A stretch of DNA of 64,000 nt from Embleya hyalina. Its GTDB lineage: Bacteria; Actinomycetota; Actinomycetes; Streptomycetales; Streptomycetaceae. The stretch is taken from NCBI RefSeq assembly GCF_003967355.1, contig NZ_BIFH01000031.1, forward strand, positions 62,001-126,000. Direction: 5' to 3'. Below the pieces are notes generated by a model, which was not told where the DNA came from, did not search any database, and was given only the letters and a program-made list of their open reading frames with translations. Shown here piece after piece: positions 2,768-12,841 of the stretch (position 1 is the first letter of the stretch; every line of letters begins with the position of its first letter). Made by a program: the position numbers and the translations under genes.

Positions 2768-3643
2768 TCAGATGTCGAAGCACTCCCTGCTCGTATCGCC
2801 CGCCGGAATGAAGCACAGTCGTAGTCCGGTCCGGGCCGGGGCGCCGATCATCGGGGTGAAACGGTAGGCGTCGGTGTCGGTGGTGTGGGTGACGACGAAT
2901 CGCTGCGGACGGGTGCCGAGGGCGGAGATCTCGATCGTGTCCCCGACCTTCGAGTGCCAGATCCGGCCCCACGCGGCGGCACACACCGAGCTGTAGCGGA
3001 CCTCCACGCGGGTACCGGTCGCGGTGTGGTGCTGTGCTCCGAGCGAGTCGTCCCGGCCGGGCAACCCGCAGGACATCTCGTCGGGGTCCCTCCCGTCACA
3101 CGAGTCCGCACGGCATCCGGGAGCGGGGTCCAGCACGGGGGAGCGCAGGATCGGCGGCGGTCCCGCGTCGTGGCTCCGCGGGGCCGTCAGCACCGGGATC
3201 GAGGCGATGGCCGCTGCGGCCACGCCGGTGGCGACGAGGACGAACAACCACCCGCGCCGAGGCCGCCGTTGCACGCCCGAGGCGCCCGTGCTGCCCGTGC
3301 TGCCCGTGGCGACGGTGGGGACCGGTGCGGGTGTGGGCAGGGACGGCGACGGAGGCGAGGGCGCGGGTGGGCCGGAGGGACGGGCCTGGCGGGCGCGTCC
3401 GCTCCATTCGGCGTCCGCCAGTTCCCACAGCGCGAGCAGTCGTCCGGTGGGCTCGCCCGCGATCGCGCACAGTGCCTCGACGGCGTGGCGGGGTACCGGC
3501 GTCCTGCCGTTGAGACAGCGTTCCCACGACGACTTGCTGTACGCGGTGCGTTCGGCCAGCGCGGCCAGGCTCAGGCCCGTACGCGCCCTCAGCTCGCGGA
3601 GCCCTTCGGCCAGTGCCGCGCACTCCGGTGCGGGAGCACTCAT
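2768..3643 (-). CDS. XRE-family membrane-anchored regulator with DUF2690 domain
   Basis: The 291-aa product has an N-terminal helix-turn-helix (about residues 10-65, with LSLAALAERTAYSKSSWERC), a Pro/Ser-rich linker, one membrane segment (about 130-150, LFVLVATGVAAAAIASIPVL) and a C-terminal DUF2690-like domain with several cysteines and the motif DPDEMSC. The ATG overlaps the stop of the upstream gene (ATGA at 3640-3643), so the two are translationally coupled. The topology suggests a cytoplasmic DNA-binding head and an extracellular domain. The target and signal are unknown. Confidence 0.85.
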   Translation of the reverse strand: MSAPAPECAALAEGLRELRARTGLSLAALAERTAYSKSSWERCLNGRTPVPRHAVEALCAIAGEPTGRLLALWELADAEWSGRARQARPSGPPAPSPPSPSLPTPAPVPTVATGSTGSTGASGVQRRPRRGWLFVLVATGVAAAAIASIPVLTAPRSHDAGPPPILRSPVLDPAPGCRADSCDGRDPDEMSCGLPGRDDSLGAQHHTATGTRVEVRYSSVCAAAWGRIWHSKVGDTIEISALGTRPQRFVVTHTTDTDAYRFTPMIGAPARTGLRLCFIPAGDTSRECFDI

Positions 3644-4611
3644 CCGCGCAGCACCTGCCAGGTGTGGGGGCCCACGATGCCGTCCGCCGGTAATCCGGCC
3701 TCCTTCTGCATGCGTATCACGGCCGCGATGGTCTGTTGCCCGTACACTCCGTCCACGATGCCCGGATCCATCCGGTGATGGTCCAGCAGGCACTGGGCCT
3801 CCACCACGTCCCAGCCCGGTCCGGCGAGCTCGACGGTCCGGGAGGCGCTGTATCCGGCGGACAGCCCCCCGCCCACCGCGTCGGCCCTACGAACCTCGCA
3901 GGGGTAGGCCTTGCCCGGCTGGAAGCGGTAGCGGCCGGGCCCGCCGGCGGTGGTCGGAGGACCGTCGGTCGGGCGCGGGCCCGGCGTCCCCACCCCCGTC
4001 GTGACCCTGCGGCGCCCGTCGTCGTCGCCCCGGGGCCCGCCGATCAGCATGCCGACGCCCACCCCCACGAGCGCGGCGATCACGACGGCGGCGAGGACGA
4101 CGGGCCGGCGTACGCCCGGCGGTCGGGCCGTGCCGGGCGAGTCCTCCGAGGCGGCGGGCTCCTCCGAGGCGCCGGCTCGCTCCTTTGCCGGCGCGCGATC
4201 CTGCGCCGGCGCGGAGCCCTCGACCGCATCGGAGTGCTCTGCCGTACCGAAATCCTCGGCCGGACCGGGCCCTTCGGCCGCGGCCCCGCCACGTGCTCCC
4301 GGCGCGCCTTCGTCCCGCACGGCGGGCGCGGTCGGCGCCGTCGACTGCCGCCAGGCCTCCTCGGCCACCTCGTGCAGCACCAGCAGCCGGACCGGATCCG
4401 CGCCCACGATCCGCGCCAGCCCCTCCACCACGTGCCGCGGCGGCAGCGCCCTGCCGTTGAGGCAGCGCTCCCACGACGAGCGGCTGTACCCGGTCCTGGC
4501 CGCGAGCGAGACCAGGCTCAGCCCGCTGCGGTCCTTCAACCTCCGTAACTGCACCACGAGTTGCCGAACCCTCCGGTCCAGCGAATCCGGTAATTCCTGC
4601 CAACGCGACAT
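3640..4611 (-). CDS. XRE-family membrane-anchored regulator with peptidoglycan-binding domain
   Basis: The 323-aa product begins with a helix-turn-helix (LSLVSLAARTGYSRSSWERC) very like its neighbour, followed by a long Ala/Glu/Pro-rich linker, a membrane helix (VVLAAVVIAALVGVGVGML) and a C-terminal PG_binding_1 domain (DPGIVDGVYGQQTIAAVIRM...GIVGPHTWQ). It may sense the cell wall outside and bind DNA inside. It is the first gene of a two-gene operon with the DUF2690 regulator. The shared HTH suggests the two arose by duplication and exchange of the outer domain. Confidence 0.85.
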   Translation of the reverse strand: MSRWQELPDSLDRRVRQLVVQLRRLKDRSGLSLVSLAARTGYSRSSWERCLNGRALPPRHVVEGLARIVGADPVRLLVLHEVAEEAWRQSTAPTAPAVRDEGAPGARGGAAAEGPGPAEDFGTAEHSDAVEGSAPAQDRAPAKERAGASEEPAASEDSPGTARPPGVRRPVVLAAVVIAALVGVGVGMLIGGPRGDDDGRRRVTTGVGTPGPRPTDGPPTTAGGPGRYRFQPGKAYPCEVRRADAVGGGLSAGYSASRTVELAGPGWDVVEAQCLLDHHRMDPGIVDGVYGQQTIAAVIRMQKEAGLPADGIVGPHTWQVLRG

Positions 4612-5287: not shown

Positions 5288-5632
5288 ATGGAAGCCTGTC
5301 GAAGGATTCTCGCCGGCACGCTCGCCGGAGTCGCGACCACGGTCGCGCTTGCCTTCGTGGCTCCACCGGCGCAAGCCGAGTCGCAAAGCACTGCGGCGAC
5401 GACTCGGGTCCAACAGACCGACGGTCGCGTCGGGACCCTTGGCTTTGGCGAATGCGCAGACGTCCTCAGCGCAGCCGGCTACACCGTGTACTACGCGAGG
5501 GCGGCTGCCTGTTCCGTGGGAACGGGGGTGGGCACCGTAAGCGCGATCGCGGCATGTGGTGTCTCACTCACATCCACGTTCGTGATGCCGTTCGTCGCCG
5601 GAGCGGCCTGCGCCGCAGCAGCCCTTCCGTAG
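5288..5632 (+). CDS. Small secreted protein, 114 aa, unknown function
   Basis: GGAGAGAAC precedes the ATG. The N-terminus is a clear Sec signal peptide with an AxA site (VAPPAQA, about residues 24-30). The mature part contains four cysteines and a very hydrophobic, Gly/Ala-rich C-terminal half (CSVGTGVGTVSAIAACGVSL and onward). The end could insert in a membrane, as in some bacteriocin-like peptides. No named family is recognised. The palindrome cluster upstream and the XRE pair nearby suggest regulated expression. Confidence 0.7.
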   Translation: MEACRRILAGTLAGVATTVALAFVAPPAQAESQSTAATTRVQQTDGRVGTLGFGECADVLSAAGYTVYYARAAACSVGTGVGTVSAIAACGVSLTSTFVMPFVAGAACAAAALP

Positions 5633-6071: not shown

Positions 6072-6986
6072 GTGCGCAATTCGGCATGCACTGACGGGAC
6101 ATGGCAAGTGGCATCCGCCTCACCTCATCCCAGGCTGCGCCCAGGTGTGAGCTGCTATCGGGGGTTCCGGCTCGGCCCGGACCGACTGCACAGGGCCAAG
6201 GAAGTGCCCATAGGTATGGCGGTGGCCCTGGTGATCCCCTTCGACGAGAAACTGCAACTCACCCCGTCGCAGTTACCTTCGGGGCCGGTGGACGCGAACG
6301 CCTCGACCTCCCCGATCGGCGGCCCGAAGACCAGCAGGACAGGCGAGGAGGACAATGGCTGCTGGTCCGAAGTGGAGGTGACCTTCGCCCCCTGGGCCGC
6401 TCTCACGATCTTCGGTACAACCCTGCAGCAGTTGGCGAACGTGGCCATCGAGCCTCGCGCATTGCTCGGCCCCCGCGCCGACGACCTCACTGAGGCGCTC
6501 GCGACCGCGGTGGGCTGGAAGGAACGTTTCGCTCTGCTCGACGTCGTGCTCACCGAATGGGCCCGGAGTGGCCCTGCGTCCTCGACGCGCGTGGCCTGGG
6601 CCTGGCAGGAACTCGCCCATAGGGCCGGCGCCGTTCCCATCCCGGTACTCGCCCGAAGGGTGGGATGGTCGCAGCGACAGCTGGAGAAACGATTTCGGGA
6701 ACAGATCGGCCTCACTCCCAAAGCCATCGCTCGCGTCTTTCGGCTTCAACGGGCACTCCAACTCCTCGACAGCGGGCTTCCCTCGGCCGAAGTGGCGACG
6801 CTGGCGGGCTACCACGATCAGGCCCACTTCGGCCATGACTGCAAGGCGATGACCGGTCATGCTCCAGGTCGCTTTATTGCCTGCCGGGTAGCCGGCAGTC
6901 CGGGCCCCTGGTCCGCGGACCGCGGCGAGGGGCAGGCCCCAGGCGTGCCGATGCCTGCCTCTATCCGGACCGCAACCTCCGTCTGA
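6072..6986 (+). CDS. AraC-family transcriptional regulator
   Basis: The 304-aa product has an N-terminal sensory domain (RLRPGVSCYRGFRLGPDRLH, then a beta-rich segment) and a C-terminal double helix-turn-helix, about residues 185-265, with VPVLARRVGWSQRQLEKRFR-like and AEVATLAGYHDQAHFGHDCK motifs. I chose the GTG at 6072 because GAGAGGA lies eight bases upstream; GTG at 6108 is the alternative. It lies directly upstream of the cysteine-rich peptide operon in the same direction, so control of that operon is a reasonable inference. Confidence 0.85.
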   Translation: MRNSACTDGTWQVASASPHPRLRPGVSCYRGFRLGPDRLHRAKEVPIGMAVALVIPFDEKLQLTPSQLPSGPVDANASTSPIGGPKTSRTGEEDNGCWSEVEVTFAPWAALTIFGTTLQQLANVAIEPRALLGPRADDLTEALATAVGWKERFALLDVVLTEWARSGPASSTRVAWAWQELAHRAGAVPIPVLARRVGWSQRQLEKRFREQIGLTPKAIARVFRLQRALQLLDSGLPSAEVATLAGYHDQAHFGHDCKAMTGHAPGRFIACRVAGSPGPWSADRGEGQAPGVPMPASIRTATSV

Positions 6987-7086
6987 CGAGAGTGCGGTTA
7001 ATTACAAGACGTCACCGGCCAGCTCGCGCGAGTCTCGTGCTGCGGGCGCTTCCGGCCCGGAACGAATCAAGCGAAGGAGTACGGAC

Positions 7087-7275
7087 GTGTTCAAGAAGCT
7101 TGGATCGATGGGGGACAGCCTCCTCGAACGATTCGCCCCCAAGGTTGACGCGGCGGCAGCAGTACGCCGGTGCTGGAGCTGGCCGGCCTGCTACCAGTGC
7201 CAGAACGAGTGCGGCTACCACGCCTCCTGCACACGCTGCGACAGCGCTCCCAACCTCTACATCTGCGACTGCTGA
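7087..7275 (+). CDS. Eight-cysteine precursor peptide, 62 aa
   Basis: GAAGGAG lies seven bases before the GTG start. Residues 1-25 form a charged, amphipathic leader (MFKKLGSMGDSLLERFAPKV, then DAAAA) without a Sec-type hydrophobic core. Residues 29-62 hold eight cysteines at 29, 35, 38, 42, 48, 51, 60 and 62, with many aromatic residues, ending ICDC. The Ala run at 22-25 resembles a signal peptidase site. Genes for a MauE-like protein, a MauD/TlpA-like thioredoxin, an ABC exporter and an S26 peptidase follow, so this is probably the substrate of that machinery, a disulfide-rich secreted peptide. Activity is unknown. Confidence 0.8.
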   Translation: MFKKLGSMGDSLLERFAPKVDAAAAVRRCWSWPACYQCQNECGYHASCTRCDSAPNLYICDC

Positions 7276-7339
7276 GCATTCGCCCTCGACGGGGGCGGCG
7301 GCGCACGTCAACGCAGGCGTAGAACCAAAGACAGGCGTA

Positions 7340-7379
7340 GGACCAGGGGCACCGGGTTGGGTCTCGGAGCCCCTGGTCC
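7340..7379 (+). terminator. Hairpin between precursor and processing genes
   Basis: A perfect 11-bp stem (GGACCAGGGGC at 7340-7350, GCCCCTGGTCC at 7369-7379) encloses an 18-base loop. There is no clean T-run, only a CT-rich tail. It fits a leaky terminator or RNA-stabilising element that makes the peptide mRNA more abundant than the downstream genes. Confidence 0.6.
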
Positions 7380-7432
7380 CCCTCTCCCAAGCCGTGGGAC
7401 GACGACACGGAAGACGACACGGAAGGTGTGCA

Positions 7433-7993
7433 GTGCACTATCTGGAGCTCGGGATCCGCTCCCTGATCGCAGTGGTGTTCCTGGCCTCGTCCGTCGGCAA
7501 GACGGCGGGGAGAGGCGCGTTCGGCGCGTTCGTAGCTTCGCTGCGTGGTCTGGAACTGCTGTCGGCGAAGGCATGCCGACCGGTGGCACTGCTCGTGGTT
7601 GTCGCCGAATACGCCGTGTGGTTGCTGCTGTTGCTGGGTTCGACGACGGTCGCTGCGACCGGATTTCTGGTTGCGGCAGGGTTGCTGGTGATGTTCGCGA
7701 CGGCGATCGCCCTCACGGCCCGTCGGGGCATCCGTCCACCGTGCCGGTGCTTCGGCGCCTCAACGACCCCACTCGGTGCCCGGCACATCGTGCGTAACGT
7801 CGTCCTCGCGGCCGTCGCGTGCCTCGGTGCGGTCACCGTACCGGCGACGAATACGTCTTCGGATCCCGGCGCACTTGTGGTGGCCATACTCGCTGGCCTG
7901 CTGTTGGGCGCGGTGGTTGCGCTGTTCGACGACATCCTCGAACTGTTCGAGCCCCTCGGCGACGGCCCGGGCGCTGCCCGGAGACGTCCATGA
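7433..7993 (+). CDS. MauE/DoxX-like membrane protein
   Basis: GGAAGG precedes the GTG by six bases. The 186-aa product has four to five membrane segments (about 11-22, 50-70, 74-94, 121-137, 147-166) and a PCRCFG motif at residues 103-108, as in the MauE family. In methylamine dehydrogenase maturation MauE works with MauD to form disulfide bonds in the small subunit. Here it precedes a MauD/TlpA-like gene by 18 bases, so it probably supplies redox equivalents for oxidative folding of the eight-cysteine peptide. Confidence 0.8.
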   Translation: MHYLELGIRSLIAVVFLASSVGKTAGRGAFGAFVASLRGLELLSAKACRPVALLVVVAEYAVWLLLLLGSTTVAATGFLVAAGLLVMFATAIALTARRGIRPPCRCFGASTTPLGARHIVRNVVLAAVACLGAVTVPATNTSSDPGALVVAILAGLLLGAVVALFDDILELFEPLGDGPGAARRRP

Positions 7994-8011
7994 CCCAGAA
8001 GGAGATTCACG

Positions 8012-8557
8012 ATGCCCTTGTTGATCGCGGCCCTGACGCTCGTGGGTTCGCTGTGCCTGCTCAACCTGATCCTGACGGTAGGAGTGATCAAGCGGCTGCG
8101 TGAGCACACGGAGATGCTGGCCAACGTGGGCGGTGCGGGCAACGGCCGGGCCTCGATCACGGTGGGGGAGGAGGTCGGTGATTTCACGGCCTCCACGGTG
8201 GACGGTGAACAACTCGCCCGTGACCTCCTGGTCGGTGAGACACTGGTGGCCTTCTTCTCGCCCACCTGTAAGCCCTGCAAGGAGAAGCTGCCGAAGTTCC
8301 TGGACTTCGCGGCGACGCTGCCCGGTGGGCGCGACCGGGTGTTGGCAACGGTGGTCGGCGACGCTGAAGCGTCCGCCGCGCTCGTCGCCGAGCTCACTCC
8401 GGTGGCGCGCGTGATCGTCGAGGAGTACGACGGGGCGCTGAGTGCCGCGTTCCAGGCCAAGGCGTACCCGACCTTGCTCATGGTCGCCCGGGACGGCGCC
8501 GGGCGGCTGGTCGTCACAGAGGACGAGGTCCGGCTGGGCCATCTCGCCATCGCATGA
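8012..8557 (+). CDS. MauD/TlpA-like membrane-anchored thioredoxin
   Basis: AAGGAG precedes the ATG. The 181-aa product has one N-terminal membrane anchor (residues 2-26) and a thioredoxin-fold domain with active site CKPC (Cys86, Cys89) in FFSPTCKPCKEKLPKF, plus a cis-Pro segment AYPTLLMV. The anchor and CxxC domain match MauD and TlpA/ResA-type proteins acting outside the membrane. Its stop overlaps the ATG of the ABC gene (ATGA at 8554-8557), so expression is coupled. It is the likely direct oxidase or isomerase for the peptide. Confidence 0.85.
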   Translation: MPLLIAALTLVGSLCLLNLILTVGVIKRLREHTEMLANVGGAGNGRASITVGEEVGDFTASTVDGEQLARDLLVGETLVAFFSPTCKPCKEKLPKFLDFAATLPGGRDRVLATVVGDAEASAALVAELTPVARVIVEEYDGALSAAFQAKAYPTLLMVARDGAGRLVVTEDEVRLGHLAIA

Positions 8558-10461
8558 CCGCCCTCGTGACCGAACAGCAGCCGCAGAAGCGGTCCGGCGC
8601 GGGGCGGCAGGCGGTCGCCGCGTTTTCGCTCGCCGTCCGGGCAGCTCCCGGCACACTCGCGCTGTACGCGGCGCTGGCACTGATCGTGGGTCTGCTTCCG
8701 GTGGTGGTCGCCTGGCTGACCAAGCTGGTGCTGGACCGCCTTGCCGCAGGTGCCGACGTCGGGGCCCTGACCGGGCTGGGAGTGGGACTCGCCCTGGCCG
8801 GACTGGTCACCGCGGTAGCTCCACAGGTGACCCGGTATCTGCGGGCGGGGATCGACCGGGAGGTGGGGATGGTCGCCCAGGACCGGTTGTTCACCGCTGT
8901 GGAGGGTTTCGTCGGACTGAGCCGGTTCGAGGACCCGCGTTTCCTCGACCGGCTGCGGTTGGCCCAGCAATCCGGCGGGACGGCCCCCACTCTGGTGGTG
9001 GACGGAGTCCTCGGCATGACCCGGGCGGCCCTCACCATCACCGGTTTCCTCGGCTCCTTGATTCTGCTCAGCCCGATGATGACCGTGCTGGTGCTCGCCT
9101 CGGGAGTGCCGACTCTGCTTGCGGAAATTGCGCTGTCGCGGAGGCGGGCGCGGATGTTCTGGGATGTCGGTCCCGTCGAGCGGCGGGAACTCTTCTACGG
9201 CCAGTTGCTGTCCAGTGTGGAAGCGGCCAAGGAGGTACGGCTGTTCGGCGCCGGTGCCTTTCTGCGGCACCGCATGCTGACCGAGCGCCGTACGGCCAAC
9301 GCCGCGAAGCGGGCCATGGACAGGCGCGAGGTCGTCGTCCAGGCCGGGTTGGGAGTACTTGCCGCCGTGGTGTCCGGCGGTGGGCTGCTGTGGGCAGTTG
9401 GCGCGGCGCGGACCGGGGCGTTATCCGTGGGAGGCATCACCATGTTCGTGGCAGCGGTCAGCGGAGTGCAGGGCGCGCTCGCCGCACTCGCCGGCGAGGT
9501 GGCCCGCTCTCACCAGGCGGTGCTGATGTTCCGACACTACGCGACGGTCACCACGGCCGGTCCGGAGCTGCCGGTGCCCGCCGCACCTCGCGCGCTGCCT
9601 GAGCTGCGCGACGCGATCGAGCTGCGTGACGTGTGGTTCCGCTACTCGGAGGAGCATCCCTGGGTGTTGCGCGGCGTCAGCCTGCGCATACCCCACGACC
9701 AAGCGGTGGCACTGGTCGGGCTGAATGGCGCCGGTAAGTCCACACTGGTCAAGCTCCTGTGCCGGTTCTATGACCCCACCCGGGGGGCGATTCTGTGGGA
9801 CGGCGTGGACTTGCGCGACACCGATCCGGTCGAACTGCGGCGGAGGATCGGCGCGGTGTTCCAGGACTACATGGAATACGACCTGACGGCGGCGGACAAC
9901 ATAGCCCTGGGCGGTCTGGGTTCCTCCGACAATCCGGACTCCCTCCCCGACGACCGTGTGCCGATTCAGGCCGCAGCGAAACGGGCGGGCATCCACCACA
10001 AGCTCGCAGGCCTGCCCCACGGCTACGACACGCTGCTGTCTCGCATGTTCTTCATGGAATCCGACAAGGACAATCCGGCCACCGGCGTGATGCTGTCGGG
10101 CGGCCAATGGCAACGGCTCGCCCTGGCTCGGGCTTTCCTGCGGGACGAGCAGGGCAAACGAGACCTGATGATCCTCGACGAACCCTCCGCCGGACTCGAC
10201 GCCGAGGCCGAGCACGAGATCCACGCCGAGCTGCGGCGGCACCGCACGGGGCGGACCAGCCTGCTGATCTCGCACCGACTCGGCGCCGTGCGCGAGGCCG
10301 ACCTTATCGTCGTGCTCTCCGAGGGATGTGTAGCCGAGCGGGGCGACCACGCCGCCCTCATGGCAACCGGTGGGGAGTATGCCCGATTGTTCACGCTTCA
10401 GGCAACCGGCTACCAGGACGACCCGGAAGCCGAATCAGTCTTCACTGGAGGAAACCGATGA
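8554..10461 (+). CDS. ABC transporter, fused permease and ATPase, peptide exporter type
   Basis: The 635-aa protein has an exporter-type membrane domain (about 30-320) and an ATPase domain with Walker A (GLNGAGKST, near 389-397), signature (LSGGQWQRLALARAF, near 515), Walker B (LMILDEPS) and H-loop (LLISHR). It has no N-terminal C39 peptidase domain, so it cannot cleave a leader itself. The next gene, a signal peptidase, could do that. It overlaps genes on both sides, indicating one transcript. The likely cargo is the cysteine-rich peptide. Confidence 0.9.
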   Translation: MTALVTEQQPQKRSGAGRQAVAAFSLAVRAAPGTLALYAALALIVGLLPVVVAWLTKLVLDRLAAGADVGALTGLGVGLALAGLVTAVAPQVTRYLRAGIDREVGMVAQDRLFTAVEGFVGLSRFEDPRFLDRLRLAQQSGGTAPTLVVDGVLGMTRAALTITGFLGSLILLSPMMTVLVLASGVPTLLAEIALSRRRARMFWDVGPVERRELFYGQLLSSVEAAKEVRLFGAGAFLRHRMLTERRTANAAKRAMDRREVVVQAGLGVLAAVVSGGGLLWAVGAARTGALSVGGITMFVAAVSGVQGALAALAGEVARSHQAVLMFRHYATVTTAGPELPVPAAPRALPELRDAIELRDVWFRYSEEHPWVLRGVSLRIPHDQAVALVGLNGAGKSTLVKLLCRFYDPTRGAILWDGVDLRDTDPVELRRRIGAVFQDYMEYDLTAADNIALGGLGSSDNPDSLPDDRVPIQAAAKRAGIHHKLAGLPHGYDTLLSRMFFMESDKDNPATGVMLSGGQWQRLALARAFLRDEQGKRDLMILDEPSAGLDAEAEHEIHAELRRHRTGRTSLLISHRLGAVREADLIVVLSEGCVAERGDHAALMATGGEYARLFTLQATGYQDDPEAESVFTGGNR

Positions 10462-10997
10462 TCCCCACGCGACCGCGCGACGGTACGCTGCGAGTCGCCG
10501 GAGTCACCAGGGTCGCGCTGCTTTGCGGAGCACCGGCAGCGCTTCTGGGCCTGGCGGGCCTGGTCGTCTCGGTACTGCAGGCGCGCAGGCTGGTCGTGGT
10601 AACCGTGCGTGGGGCGAGCATGGAACCGGCGTACCGCGATGGTGACCGGGTCCTCGTACGTCGTGACCTGGCCCCTTCGCCGGGGCAGGTGATCGTGATG
10701 GAACACCCCGGTGCCGGGATGGTTCCCGGCTCCGCCTGGTATGGCCCGCCTGTGGGGCGCACTGCACGGGCGCCCGCCATTACAGGGCGGCAGTGGTTGA
10801 TCAAGCGTGTGGCGGCCGCACCGGGCGACCCCGTACCGCGCGACCGGTTCCCCGCCCTGGCTGGAGTGCTCGAAACCCGGGTCCCCGTCAGCAGTTTGGT
10901 CCTGCTGGGCGACAACGAGGAGATCAGCTTCGACTCCCGGCAAGCCGGCTACTTTCCGGCGGAGCGCGTGCTGGGGACGGTGCTTCGCCACCTGTGA
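10458..10997 (+). CDS. S26-family signal peptidase
   Basis: GGAGG lies before the ATG, which overlaps the ABC gene stop. The 179-aa product has one membrane segment (about 17-40), the catalytic Ser in GASMEPAYRDGD (Ser54), the general-base Lys in WLIKRVAAAPGD (Lys116) and the C-terminal GDN...S.DSR box. It is last in the operon. A dedicated type I signal peptidase could remove the leader of the peptide after the Ala-rich stretch at residues 22-25. A role in general secretion is less likely given the context. Confidence 0.88.
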   Translation: MIPTRPRDGTLRVAGVTRVALLCGAPAALLGLAGLVVSVLQARRLVVVTVRGASMEPAYRDGDRVLVRRDLAPSPGQVIVMEHPGAGMVPGSAWYGPPVGRTARAPAITGRQWLIKRVAAAPGDPVPRDRFPALAGVLETRVPVSSLVLLGDNEEISFDSRQAGYFPAERVLGTVLRHL

Positions 10998-11192
10998 GTG
11001 TGCGTTGTGGTGGCGGTGGTTGGTCGTCAGTGGGGCGCGGGTGTCGTGTGGGTGTTTGTGTGCTGGTCGGGGTGTGGATGACCGTGATTGTTTCGACTGT
11101 CACGGGAGTGACCATCGACTGACGTCGGGTGCTTAACACAAGCGGGGGTGGATTCAACTGGTCGTCGCAACACTTGGATGTGGAGGTGTTGC

Positions 11193-12116
11193 ATGGGAAG
11201 ACCGGTCGGGTGGATTACGCCGTTCACCGGGCGTCCGGCGATGCGTTCGCCGGGTCGTCCGCCTCCCCGGCGGGAGGTGGAGCGGGCGTTCCGGGCGAGG
11301 GTCGCCGAGGGCTTGACGATCGAGGACGCCGCGGTCGCGTGCGGTGTGTCGGGCCCGGTCGGTTCGCGGTGGTTCCGCAAGGGTGGCGGCATGCCGCCGA
11401 TGCAGTCGGATCCGCCGTCGGGTGGATACCTGTCGTTCGCCGAGCGTGAGGAGATCGCGCTGCTCAAGGCCCAGGACGTGGGAGTCCGCGAGATTGCGCG
11501 CCGCCTGGGCGGGGGTCCCGCCACGGTCTCCCGGGAGCTGCGGCGCAACGCTGCCACGCGCGGCGGCCGGCTGGAGTACCGGGCGTCGACCGCGCAGTGG
11601 AAGGCCGAGTTGGCGGCGCGGCGGCCCAAGACCGCGAAGCCGGCGGGCGACGAGCGGCTGCGCACGTATGTGCAGGACCGCCTCGCGGGCGAAGTCCGGT
11701 TCCCGGACGGCACGCCCGCGGCAGGGCCGCAGGCGTCGCGGTGGAAGGGCCGGAACAAGCCCCGCCGTCGGGACCGTCGGTGGGCGACGTCGTGGAGCCC
11801 GGAGCGGATCTCCCGCCGACTCGGGACGGACTTCCCCGATGACGAGTCCATGCGGATCTCGCACGAGGCGATCCACCAGGCGCTGTTCGTCCAAGGACGT
11901 GGGGCACTCAAGCGTGAGCTGGTCGCCTGCCTGCGCACAGGACGGGCGTTGCGCGTCCCGAGGGAACGCGCACGCAACCGCGCTCGCGGTCATGTCACGC
12001 CGGATGTGGTGATCAGTGAGCGGCCCTCGGAGGCGGCCGACCGGGCGGTGCCCCCACTCGCCTGGTCGGCCTCGACCGCCTCACCGGCGGCCTGCACCCG
12101 GGACAACTCGTCGTGA
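11193..12116 (+). pseudogene. IS30-family transposase lacking its catalytic domain
   Basis: GGAGGTG precedes the ATG at 11193. The N-terminal two-thirds match IS30 transposases: a first HTH, then YLSFAEREEIALLKAQ and EIARRLGGGPATVSRELRRN, then SMRISHEAIHQALFVQGRGA. Homology stops near 12050 after SERPSEAADRAVP, where the GHWEGDL start of the DDE domain should follow. From there the DNA matches a DnaB-like helicase in another frame. The element is therefore dead and joined to foreign sequence. No right-end inverted repeat is seen. Confidence 0.88.
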
Positions 12117-12841
12117 TCGCCGCGCGGCCGGCCCACGGCAAGAGCACCCTGGCGATCAACCTCGCGCGGTCCTGTGCCGTTGCCGAGGGCCGCCCCGTGT
12201 TGCTGTTCTCTCCGCAGATGAGCCGTCTGGACATCCAGCGGCGCGTGATGTCCGCGGAGGGCCGCATCCCCCTGCACCACCTCACCCACCGGCGACCGAC
12301 CGGCGACGACTTGCAGGCCTTCACCGAAGCCATGCCCCGCGTTGCCAAGGCCGCGCTGACCGTCGACACGACGGCCCGACCCGATGTGGACGCGATCCGC
12401 TCCCAATGCCACCGGATGCGCACCCGCGGCGGCGTGGACCTGCTGATCGTCGACACCGTCCACGAACTCGCCCCCGCGCGCCGGTACGACAACCGGTACG
12501 GCGAACTCGAGGAGATCAGCCGCTCCCTCAAACGCGTCGCCCGAGAACTGGGCATCCCTGTGGTAGTCACCGCCCAGCTCAACCGTGATCCCGAGACTCG
12601 GCCGGCCCGGGAACCCAGGCCGAGCGATATCAGGGACTGCGGGGCTTTCGAGGAGGACGCGGACCTGGTCGTACTGATCAACCGCGACGACGTGCACGAT
12701 CCGCGATCCCCGCGCGCGGGTGAGGCCGACCTCATCGTGGCCAAACATCGCAACGGCCCCACCGGCCGCCTCACTGTCGCCTTCCAGGGACACCTGGCGC
12801 GCTTCATCGACCTCGCCGCCGACTACACGCCGCGTGTGTAG
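12050..12841 (+). pseudogene. DnaB-like helicase C-terminal (RecA-like) domain, no N-terminus
   Basis: The frame begins after a TGA at 12017-12019 and encodes RLVGLDRLTGGLHPGQLVVI, then Walker A (ARPAHGKST), Walker B (LLIVDTVHEL) and the VVVTAQLNRDPETR loop typical of DnaB. It ends at 12841. The N-terminal primase-binding domain is missing, and the 5' end coincides with the break in the IS30 transposase. A GTG at 12113 could start a shorter protein, but that would discard the strand before the P-loop. I treat it as a truncated replicative-helicase fragment, perhaps from a plasmid or phage. Confidence 0.7.

Follow-up and report, generated by a model that had tools for sequence, protein, structure and literature searches.

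Gene clusters in which a MauE-type membrane protein accompanies a cysteine-rich peptide are, as an idea, partly in print. The decRiPPter survey (PMC7794033) lists three Streptomyces candidate families with mauE, one of them also with mauD, in which each precursor has at least 8 cysteines. We analysed a locus of this kind in Embleya hyalina, within a 64,000-nucleotide stretch of contig NZ_BIFH01000031.1 (positions 62,001 to 126,000 of the forward strand) that we refer to as the window, where a 62-residue precursor peptide with eight cysteines is followed by genes for a MauE-type protein, a TlpA/ResA-like protein, an ABC exporter and an S26 peptidase. This five-part set probably marks a large family of ribosomal peptides that are secreted and crosslinked by disulfides, with a redox, export and cleavage set dedicated to them. 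The reading draws on the anatomy of the locus, its recurrence, a conserved leader, conserved redox and catalytic residues and a near-universal even number of cysteines.

Judged by description, the decRiPPter mauE families are likely the same as the present family. As here, their clusters were selected for a transporter, a peptidase and a regulator, but in the section describing them they stand as candidates without a leader family, a spread or a mechanism (PMC7794033). The original prediction, made from the letters of this DNA, knew of no named class for the locus, and among the open-licence papers listed in the literature searches there was likewise none characterising such a MauE/TlpA/ABC/S26 peptide cluster, although decRiPPter already lists its mauE candidate families. 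What is new here is the leader family with its breadth, the even number of cysteines, the stem-loop that follows the precursor gene, and a distribution of charges by which the CxC of MauE and the thioredoxin domain of TlpA would lie in the cytoplasm. The class I lasso peptides sviceucin, MS-271 and humidimycin also combine DoxX and CXXC thioredoxin proteins with export genes in Streptomyces, but have transporters split over several genes. Neither the lasso cyclase and B protein (leader peptidase) nor the glycosyltransferase of glycocins was found among the eight window proteins and 20 representatives of flanking gene families that were scanned, and the glycocin leader presumably differs from the leader family described here. 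Glycocins and sublancin do resemble the present system in pairing a disulfide peptide with dedicated thiol oxidoreductases (PMC9266682). In TMcins an oxidoreductase, protease and ABC set whose members belong to other families is proven: they too have a dedicated oxidoreductase, a leader protease and an ABC exporter at the membrane, but with a transmembrane precursor, one disulfide, a DsbA-type CPHC motif and an S2P-clan protease (PMC13252029). Actifensin and other bacterial defensins are likewise actinobacterial cysteine-rich peptides with ABC transporter genes, sometimes in several copies per locus, and differ in having separate ABC genes, a subtilisin-like protease and a fixed cysteine pattern; the passages on the actifensin operon mention neither MauE nor TlpA (PMC6989792).

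The locus in the window is arranged as follows:

7087-7275, + strand: precursor peptide, 62 aa, 8 cysteines, GTG start with AAGGAG ahead of it
7340-7379, + strand: stem-loop with an 11-bp perfect stem (7340-7350 / 7369-7379), between the precursor and MauE
7433-7993, + strand: MauE/DoxX-type membrane protein, 186 aa, five long helices (PF07291, E 6.8e-21)
8012-8557, + strand: TlpA/ResA-like membrane-anchored thioredoxin-fold protein with C86KPC89
8554-10461, + strand: ABC exporter, transmembrane domain fused to the ATPase (PF00005, E 8.8e-28)
10458-10997, + strand: S26 peptidase of the signal-peptidase type, in which the Ser and Lys of the expected catalytic pair are present (PF10502, E 1.3e-16)

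The gene content given in the original prediction is borne out for the peptide, whose eight cysteines all lie inside residues 29-62 (its last 34, as had been described), for the MauE-like gene (75.3 bits against PF07291, above the cut-off of 27) and for the exporter and peptidase genes. Of the label MauD/TlpA-like the second half is supported: the protein is TlpA/ResA-like and has the CKPC motif, but all six of its NCBIfam matches (E 0.1) fall under the cut-offs, the top one being the ResA model (E 1.2e-5), and none of the six is named MauD. The NCBIfam library includes a MauD model. No C39 peptidase domain occurs among the Pfam matches of the ABC exporter. The S26 peptidase also matches the type I signal peptidase model TIGR02227 above its cut-off (55.8 bits against 47), with the Ser/Lys pair there too, and its start was checked at 10458, inside the ABC stop region. 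The genes had been said to follow the peptide without real gaps, which is so from MauE onwards (18 bases between MauE and TlpA, overlaps at TlpA/ABC and ABC/S26), but 157 bases containing the stem separate the peptide from MauE. Within the peptide the leader takes up about residues 1-25 (MFKKLGSMGDSLLERFAPKVDAAAA) and the core about residues 26-62 with all 8 cysteines, the cleavage point between them being putative; the leader matches the leader model described below at E 7.5e-11, the training set of that model containing it.

Within 297 genomes of the window's family the TlpA protein matched 42, the window's own genome counted, and a precursor model matched 43, the 25 rows of that model having been taken from loci of the same sample. 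Forty genomes are common to the two listings; TlpA alone was found in two (G011, G201) and the precursor alone in three (G086, G142, G237), and at the G011 locus (L129) a peptide was found by the later leader model. In a class sample the TlpA model at E 1e-20 matched 28 of 394 genomes, while a phylum-wide TlpA search matched two of 296, the window's own and one more of its family. A MauE search gave 67 loci, and those among them with TlpA and ABC come from Streptomyces, Embleya, Micromonospora, Dactylosporangium, Actinoplanes, Nonomuraea, Microbispora, Streptosporangium, Actinomadura, Nocardia and Corallococcus sicarius. Together with 100 fetched loci and the window itself these make a collection of 168 loci, 157 of which have a TlpA or ABC match, 146 of the 157 being distinct. 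The set as a whole spans Streptomycetaceae, Streptosporangiaceae, Micromonosporaceae, Nocardia and one Corallococcus.

A genome search for short cysteine-rich frames beside MauE, TlpA, ABC and S26 genes had been proposed in the original prediction, which named homologous loci lacking such a peptide as the outcome that would speak against it. Both were pursued using leader-only models, chosen so that cysteines play no part in the selection. A first model, made from 32 distinct leaders of the window's family, was applied to 40 loci from a different family, the Streptosporangiaceae to judge by its named members; at E 0.05 it found a cysteine-rich peptide in 35 of them and missed it in L099, L108, L116, L118 and L120. 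A second model of 97 leaders was run on all 168 loci, many of which had contributed leaders, and at E 0.01 found a peptide in 137 of the 145 loci with TlpA and ABC, a count that includes the window and repeat contigs. The set does recur with its peptide, and the prediction was not refuted by this test. Six of the eight misses (L069, L082, L108, L118, L135, L207) hold a candidate at a weaker score or by eye. Where TlpA is present but the ABC match is not strong, six of nine loci have the peptide, and among 14 loci without a TlpA match it occurs in four (L134, L142, L143, L200), the other ten having entered the collection via MauE only. The peptide lies at most 1 kb from one of the four machinery genes in 148 of 151 cases, and the commonest gene order is peptide-MauE-TlpA-ABC-S26 (54 distinct loci). 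Because of these recurrence counts for TlpA (42/297), the precursor (43/297) and the peptide (137/145) we regard the set as more than a chance grouping.

The myxobacterium Corallococcus sicarius carries all four machinery genes at L207, with a 61-residue peptide of 8 cysteines upstream of MauE (L207:7430-7615) that was seen by eye and missed by the leader model; the locus suggests transfer between phyla. TlpA matches at E 1e-10 were found in 28 plasmid records, and at least 16 S. clavuligerus records are among those listed in a separate plasmid search. In the S. clavuligerus pF1D18A region the whole set adjoins two tandem precursors with six cysteines each (WP_003953191.1 and WP_009999284.1), both annotated as hypothetical protein, and neighbouring genes are annotated 'MauE/DoxX family' and 'S26 family signal peptidase'. 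If cut after AHA, these two precursors would give oxidised products with predicted monoisotopic masses of 4797.026 and 4913.219, and the reduced forms would each be heavier by 6.047. Elsewhere in the window's genome a fourth family precursor was observed at L143 (C19:163500-177500; 6922-7083, minus strand), with none of the four machinery genes within the 14 kb fetched around it; apart from this locus the genome holds three sets, marked by TlpA matches. A further observation concerns a Pseudonocardiales metagenome-assembled genome with MauE and TlpA matches (L157:2810), where a small frame, MSQILDFQKMDVELAIGDP..., lies some kilobases off; we take this frame to resemble a lanthipeptide-type precursor and not the peptide family of the MauE/TlpA set.

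The precursors of the family are genetically encoded and combine a conserved leader with a variable core, the arrangement of ribosomally synthesised and post-translationally modified peptides. The leader consensus is roughly LxDRLLxxLVPxxxAxA. A Sec-type hydrophobic stretch is mostly absent: over 103 leaders, the hydropathy of the best 10 residues has a median of 0.84 and a range of 0.10-2.03. Of 150 peptides, 126 have AxA as the final small-x-Ala tripeptide ahead of the first core cysteine and the remaining 24 have another [VSGT]xA, counts that carry no chance control for Ala-rich leaders; an AxA site would suit an S26 peptidase. Cysteine frameworks in the 150 cores fall into 94 exact spacings, 69 groups if each gap may vary by ±2, or 19 patterns by neighbouring cysteines. 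The number of cysteines is even in 145 of the 150 distinct peptides and in 89 of the 94 that are left once these are thinned to 60% core identity. Among control frames of similar length from the same loci the even share is 69%, owed mostly to 4-cysteine frames (P 8e-10); among peptides found only in the MauE-search loci 43 of 47 are even. The ratio of nonsynonymous to synonymous differences (pN/pS) is 0.22 for the leader and 0.66 for the core (124 non-independent pairs), the leader value being biased downward because the pairs were selected for similar leaders.

Comparison with known families gave little. Among 25 scanned precursors there was no NCBIfam match and one weak Pfam match, to CBM_14 (E 0.0021), at E 0.01; an alignment of the 25 had no match among PDB sequences at E 1, and no near relatives of the window peptide were found in the genome-contig search. 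The predicted fold of the window precursor is of low confidence (pLDDT 60.5), with a core made of a helix and then strands, and the model has no PDB match at E 0.001. That order of helix and strands, together with a fit of the window peptide to the published cis-defensin cysteine pattern (PMC11561630), would agree with a bacterial CS-alpha-beta defensin, but the fold is poorly resolved and unmatched and the pattern fits just 4 of 103 family cores where 2.3 are expected in shuffles. We therefore consider it very improbable that the window peptide is a defensin, and rejected a defensin identity for the family as a whole, for which the pattern is near chance.

Conservation of the machinery was assessed in the first 40 loci plus the window. 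MauE has an invariant C104xC106FG, K23 and E59 in all 39 loci with a MauE nearby, the other two having none, and the TlpA CxxC and the S26 Ser and Lys (S53 and K115 in the numbering of a gene model that lacks one residue) are each present in 41 of 41. Over all matches the CxxC is found in 154 of 154 TlpA proteins and the CxCFG in 151 of 153 MauE proteins. An AlphaFold2 model of MauE (pLDDT 91.2) has five long helices; it gave 207 PDB matches up to E 10 and none at E 0.001, and thus no link of MauE to DsbB or VKOR was found. In the working scheme the amphipathic conserved leader would bring the peptide to the membrane machinery, the MauE/TlpA pair would do thiol chemistry on the core, the ABC protein would export the peptide and the S26 peptidase would cut the leader off at the AxA site. 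The released product would have every cysteine in a disulfide, four disulfides in the case of the window, where the mature form would be about VRR...CDC, 37 aa; for a cut after A25 the predicted monoisotopic mass is 4295.650 oxidised and 4303.713 reduced. We infer that the peptide is exported and cleaved, that its disulfides form, and that it is released to act between bacteria or as a signal.

In order to place the thiol step we counted Lys and Arg (K/R) residues around the membrane helices. Of 146 distinct loci tried, seven were dropped for a weak match, no start or no clear helix; in all 139 others TlpA has 0 before its helix, with a mean of 3.55 behind it, the zero being partly expected because the stretch ahead of the helix is just a few residues long. 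As no MauD-named record turned up in the plasmid searches to serve as a control, six other TlpA/ResA proteins were taken; four have more K/R before the helix, one has fewer and one equal numbers. In all 38 MauE rows the side that bears the CxC has the K/R excess, and its loops are also longer. By the positive-inside rule these patterns would turn both redox parts towards the cytoplasm, and for this reason we lean towards a thiol step at the inner (cytoplasmic) face before export, with leader removal on either side. The scheme of the original prediction had suggested folding outside the cell, and it is this element of its self-contained peptide system that the charges do not favour; the conservation of the set as a unit with its peptide and the almost always even cysteine number support the prediction in part.

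Housekeeping TlpA/ResA proteins and signal peptidases work on the outer face. An alternative that follows them, in which the ABC protein exports a reduced precursor that TlpA and MauE oxidise and S26 cuts, all on the outer face, is quite possible, although we rate it somewhat short of an even chance; the short pre-helix stretch of TlpA leaves room for it, while the uniform TlpA pattern, set beside four controls of six with the reverse, and the MauE charge excess on the CxC side argue the other way. Conopeptides have a single conserved leader with variable cysteine frameworks, a likeness to the present family for which no homology is claimed, conopeptides belonging to an animal secretory pathway. 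A conotoxin-like strategy here, with one leader family and a small machine serving many cysteine frameworks and MauE/TlpA making the disulfides on the cytoplasmic face before export, is a tentative proposal to which we give, as a whole, somewhat less than an even chance.

Several points weigh against the reading of a dedicated secretion and disulfide system. Among the 145 loci that have both TlpA and ABC, L099 and L116 show no peptide (L099 is also without MauE and S26 matches), and five of the 150 peptides have an odd number of cysteines. Leader distance correlates with ABC distance at r 0.48 and core distance at r 0.49, so that coevolution lends no support to recognition of the leader by the exporter. 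The S26 charges are mixed: a first count gave more K/R after the helix in 87 of 113, more before in 11 and equal numbers in 15, and a second, using starts supported by a ribosome site, some of them plainly too long, gave 63 of 87 after, 18 before and six equal. The window protein is equivocal with 4 before and 3 after, which together with the 18 relatives leaves room for cleavage outside; in three housekeeping S26 proteins encoded in the same genome, K/R number 4-6 ahead of the helix and 0-1 behind it. Finally, class I lasso peptides acquire their disulfides even without the DoxX/thioredoxin pair, which affects export or yield: without SviF sviceucin is still made yet confined to the mycelium, and MS-271 is still produced, at lower yield, in mslE and mslF knockouts (PMC9266682).

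That precedent raises the possibility that disulfides form unaided here too and that MauE and TlpA serve export, proofreading (isomerisation/reduction) or quality control, and TlpA proteins are indeed frequently annotated as disulfide reductases, for example plasmid match H4. With the MauE CxC and the TlpA CxxC conserved throughout the family, and with short peptides that may hold as many as five disulfides and would then require shuffling, we consider this unlikely. A reduced, metal-binding peptide is very improbable: a cysteine-rich peptide beside a DoxX relative does recall the captophorin/bufferin copper peptides, whose clusters often include DoxX (PMC12668002), but no MNIO enzyme was found in the eight window proteins or the 20 flank representatives, and the even cysteine parity and the presence of a dedicated exporter and a CxxC protein in the set speak against it too.

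Flanking genes were called and clustered in 135 loci with an incomplete caller, which found MauE in 79 of the 135 and S26 in 49. Twenty-six flank families occur in at least four loci; setting aside the four genes themselves and any relatives of ABC or MauE leaves 20, from each of which one representative was scanned. BTAD/SARP regulators are the commonest family (56 of 135 loci), followed by AraC regulators (8 loci), and the remainder are regulators, transporters, dehydrogenases and similar, with one family lacking a Pfam match. No radical SAM, YcaO, lanthionine or glycosyltransferase domain was present among these 20 representatives, as far as the incomplete gene caller reaches, in agreement with the earlier statement that lanthionine, thiazole and radical SAM enzymes are missing. 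In the window a regulator lies directly upstream of the operon and from its position may be part of the peptide system:

6216-6986, + strand: AraC-type regulator, start uncertain (PF12833, E 1.6e-20)

The gap between precursor and MauE folds with z -1.84 against shuffles in the window, and with z below -2 in 52 of 77 relatives, a comparison made with shuffles and not with other intergenic gaps. Neither a T tract nor a terminator match was found at the window stem-loop, and a scan of 6900-11200 gave no promoter site and three terminator-like sites, none coinciding with it. The stem may be a partial terminator or an mRNA-stabilising stem, either of which would raise the precursor over the machinery. 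Other features were observed around the operon. Upstream of the regulator, a 114-aa frame within a longer listed frame (5288-5632, + strand) has an apparent Sec-type signal peptide and a mature part containing Ala and Cys. Just downstream of the operon an IS30-like transposase fragment, in a frame overlapping a DnaB C-terminal helicase fragment (11148-12841, + strand), is perhaps the scar of a mobile element. Further away lie a protein with RTX-type calcium-binding repeats (PF00353; 17974-18933, + strand) and one combining helix-turn-helix and peptidoglycan-binding domains (3640-4611, - strand).

The analysis turns a short published list of candidates into a defined family whose leader signature allows direct searches, and points to an accessible host in Streptomyces clavuligerus, with the two plasmid-borne precursors that are at present annotated as hypothetical protein. 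In so small a system the part that MauE/DoxX plays alongside a thioredoxin partner, so far unsettled, can be put to the test. The family also points towards a naturally occurring collection of disulfide-rich peptides, which a single kind of export and folding set may be able to handle. If the disulfides are made at the cytoplasmic face, they would be formed in a compartment that is ordinarily regarded as reducing.

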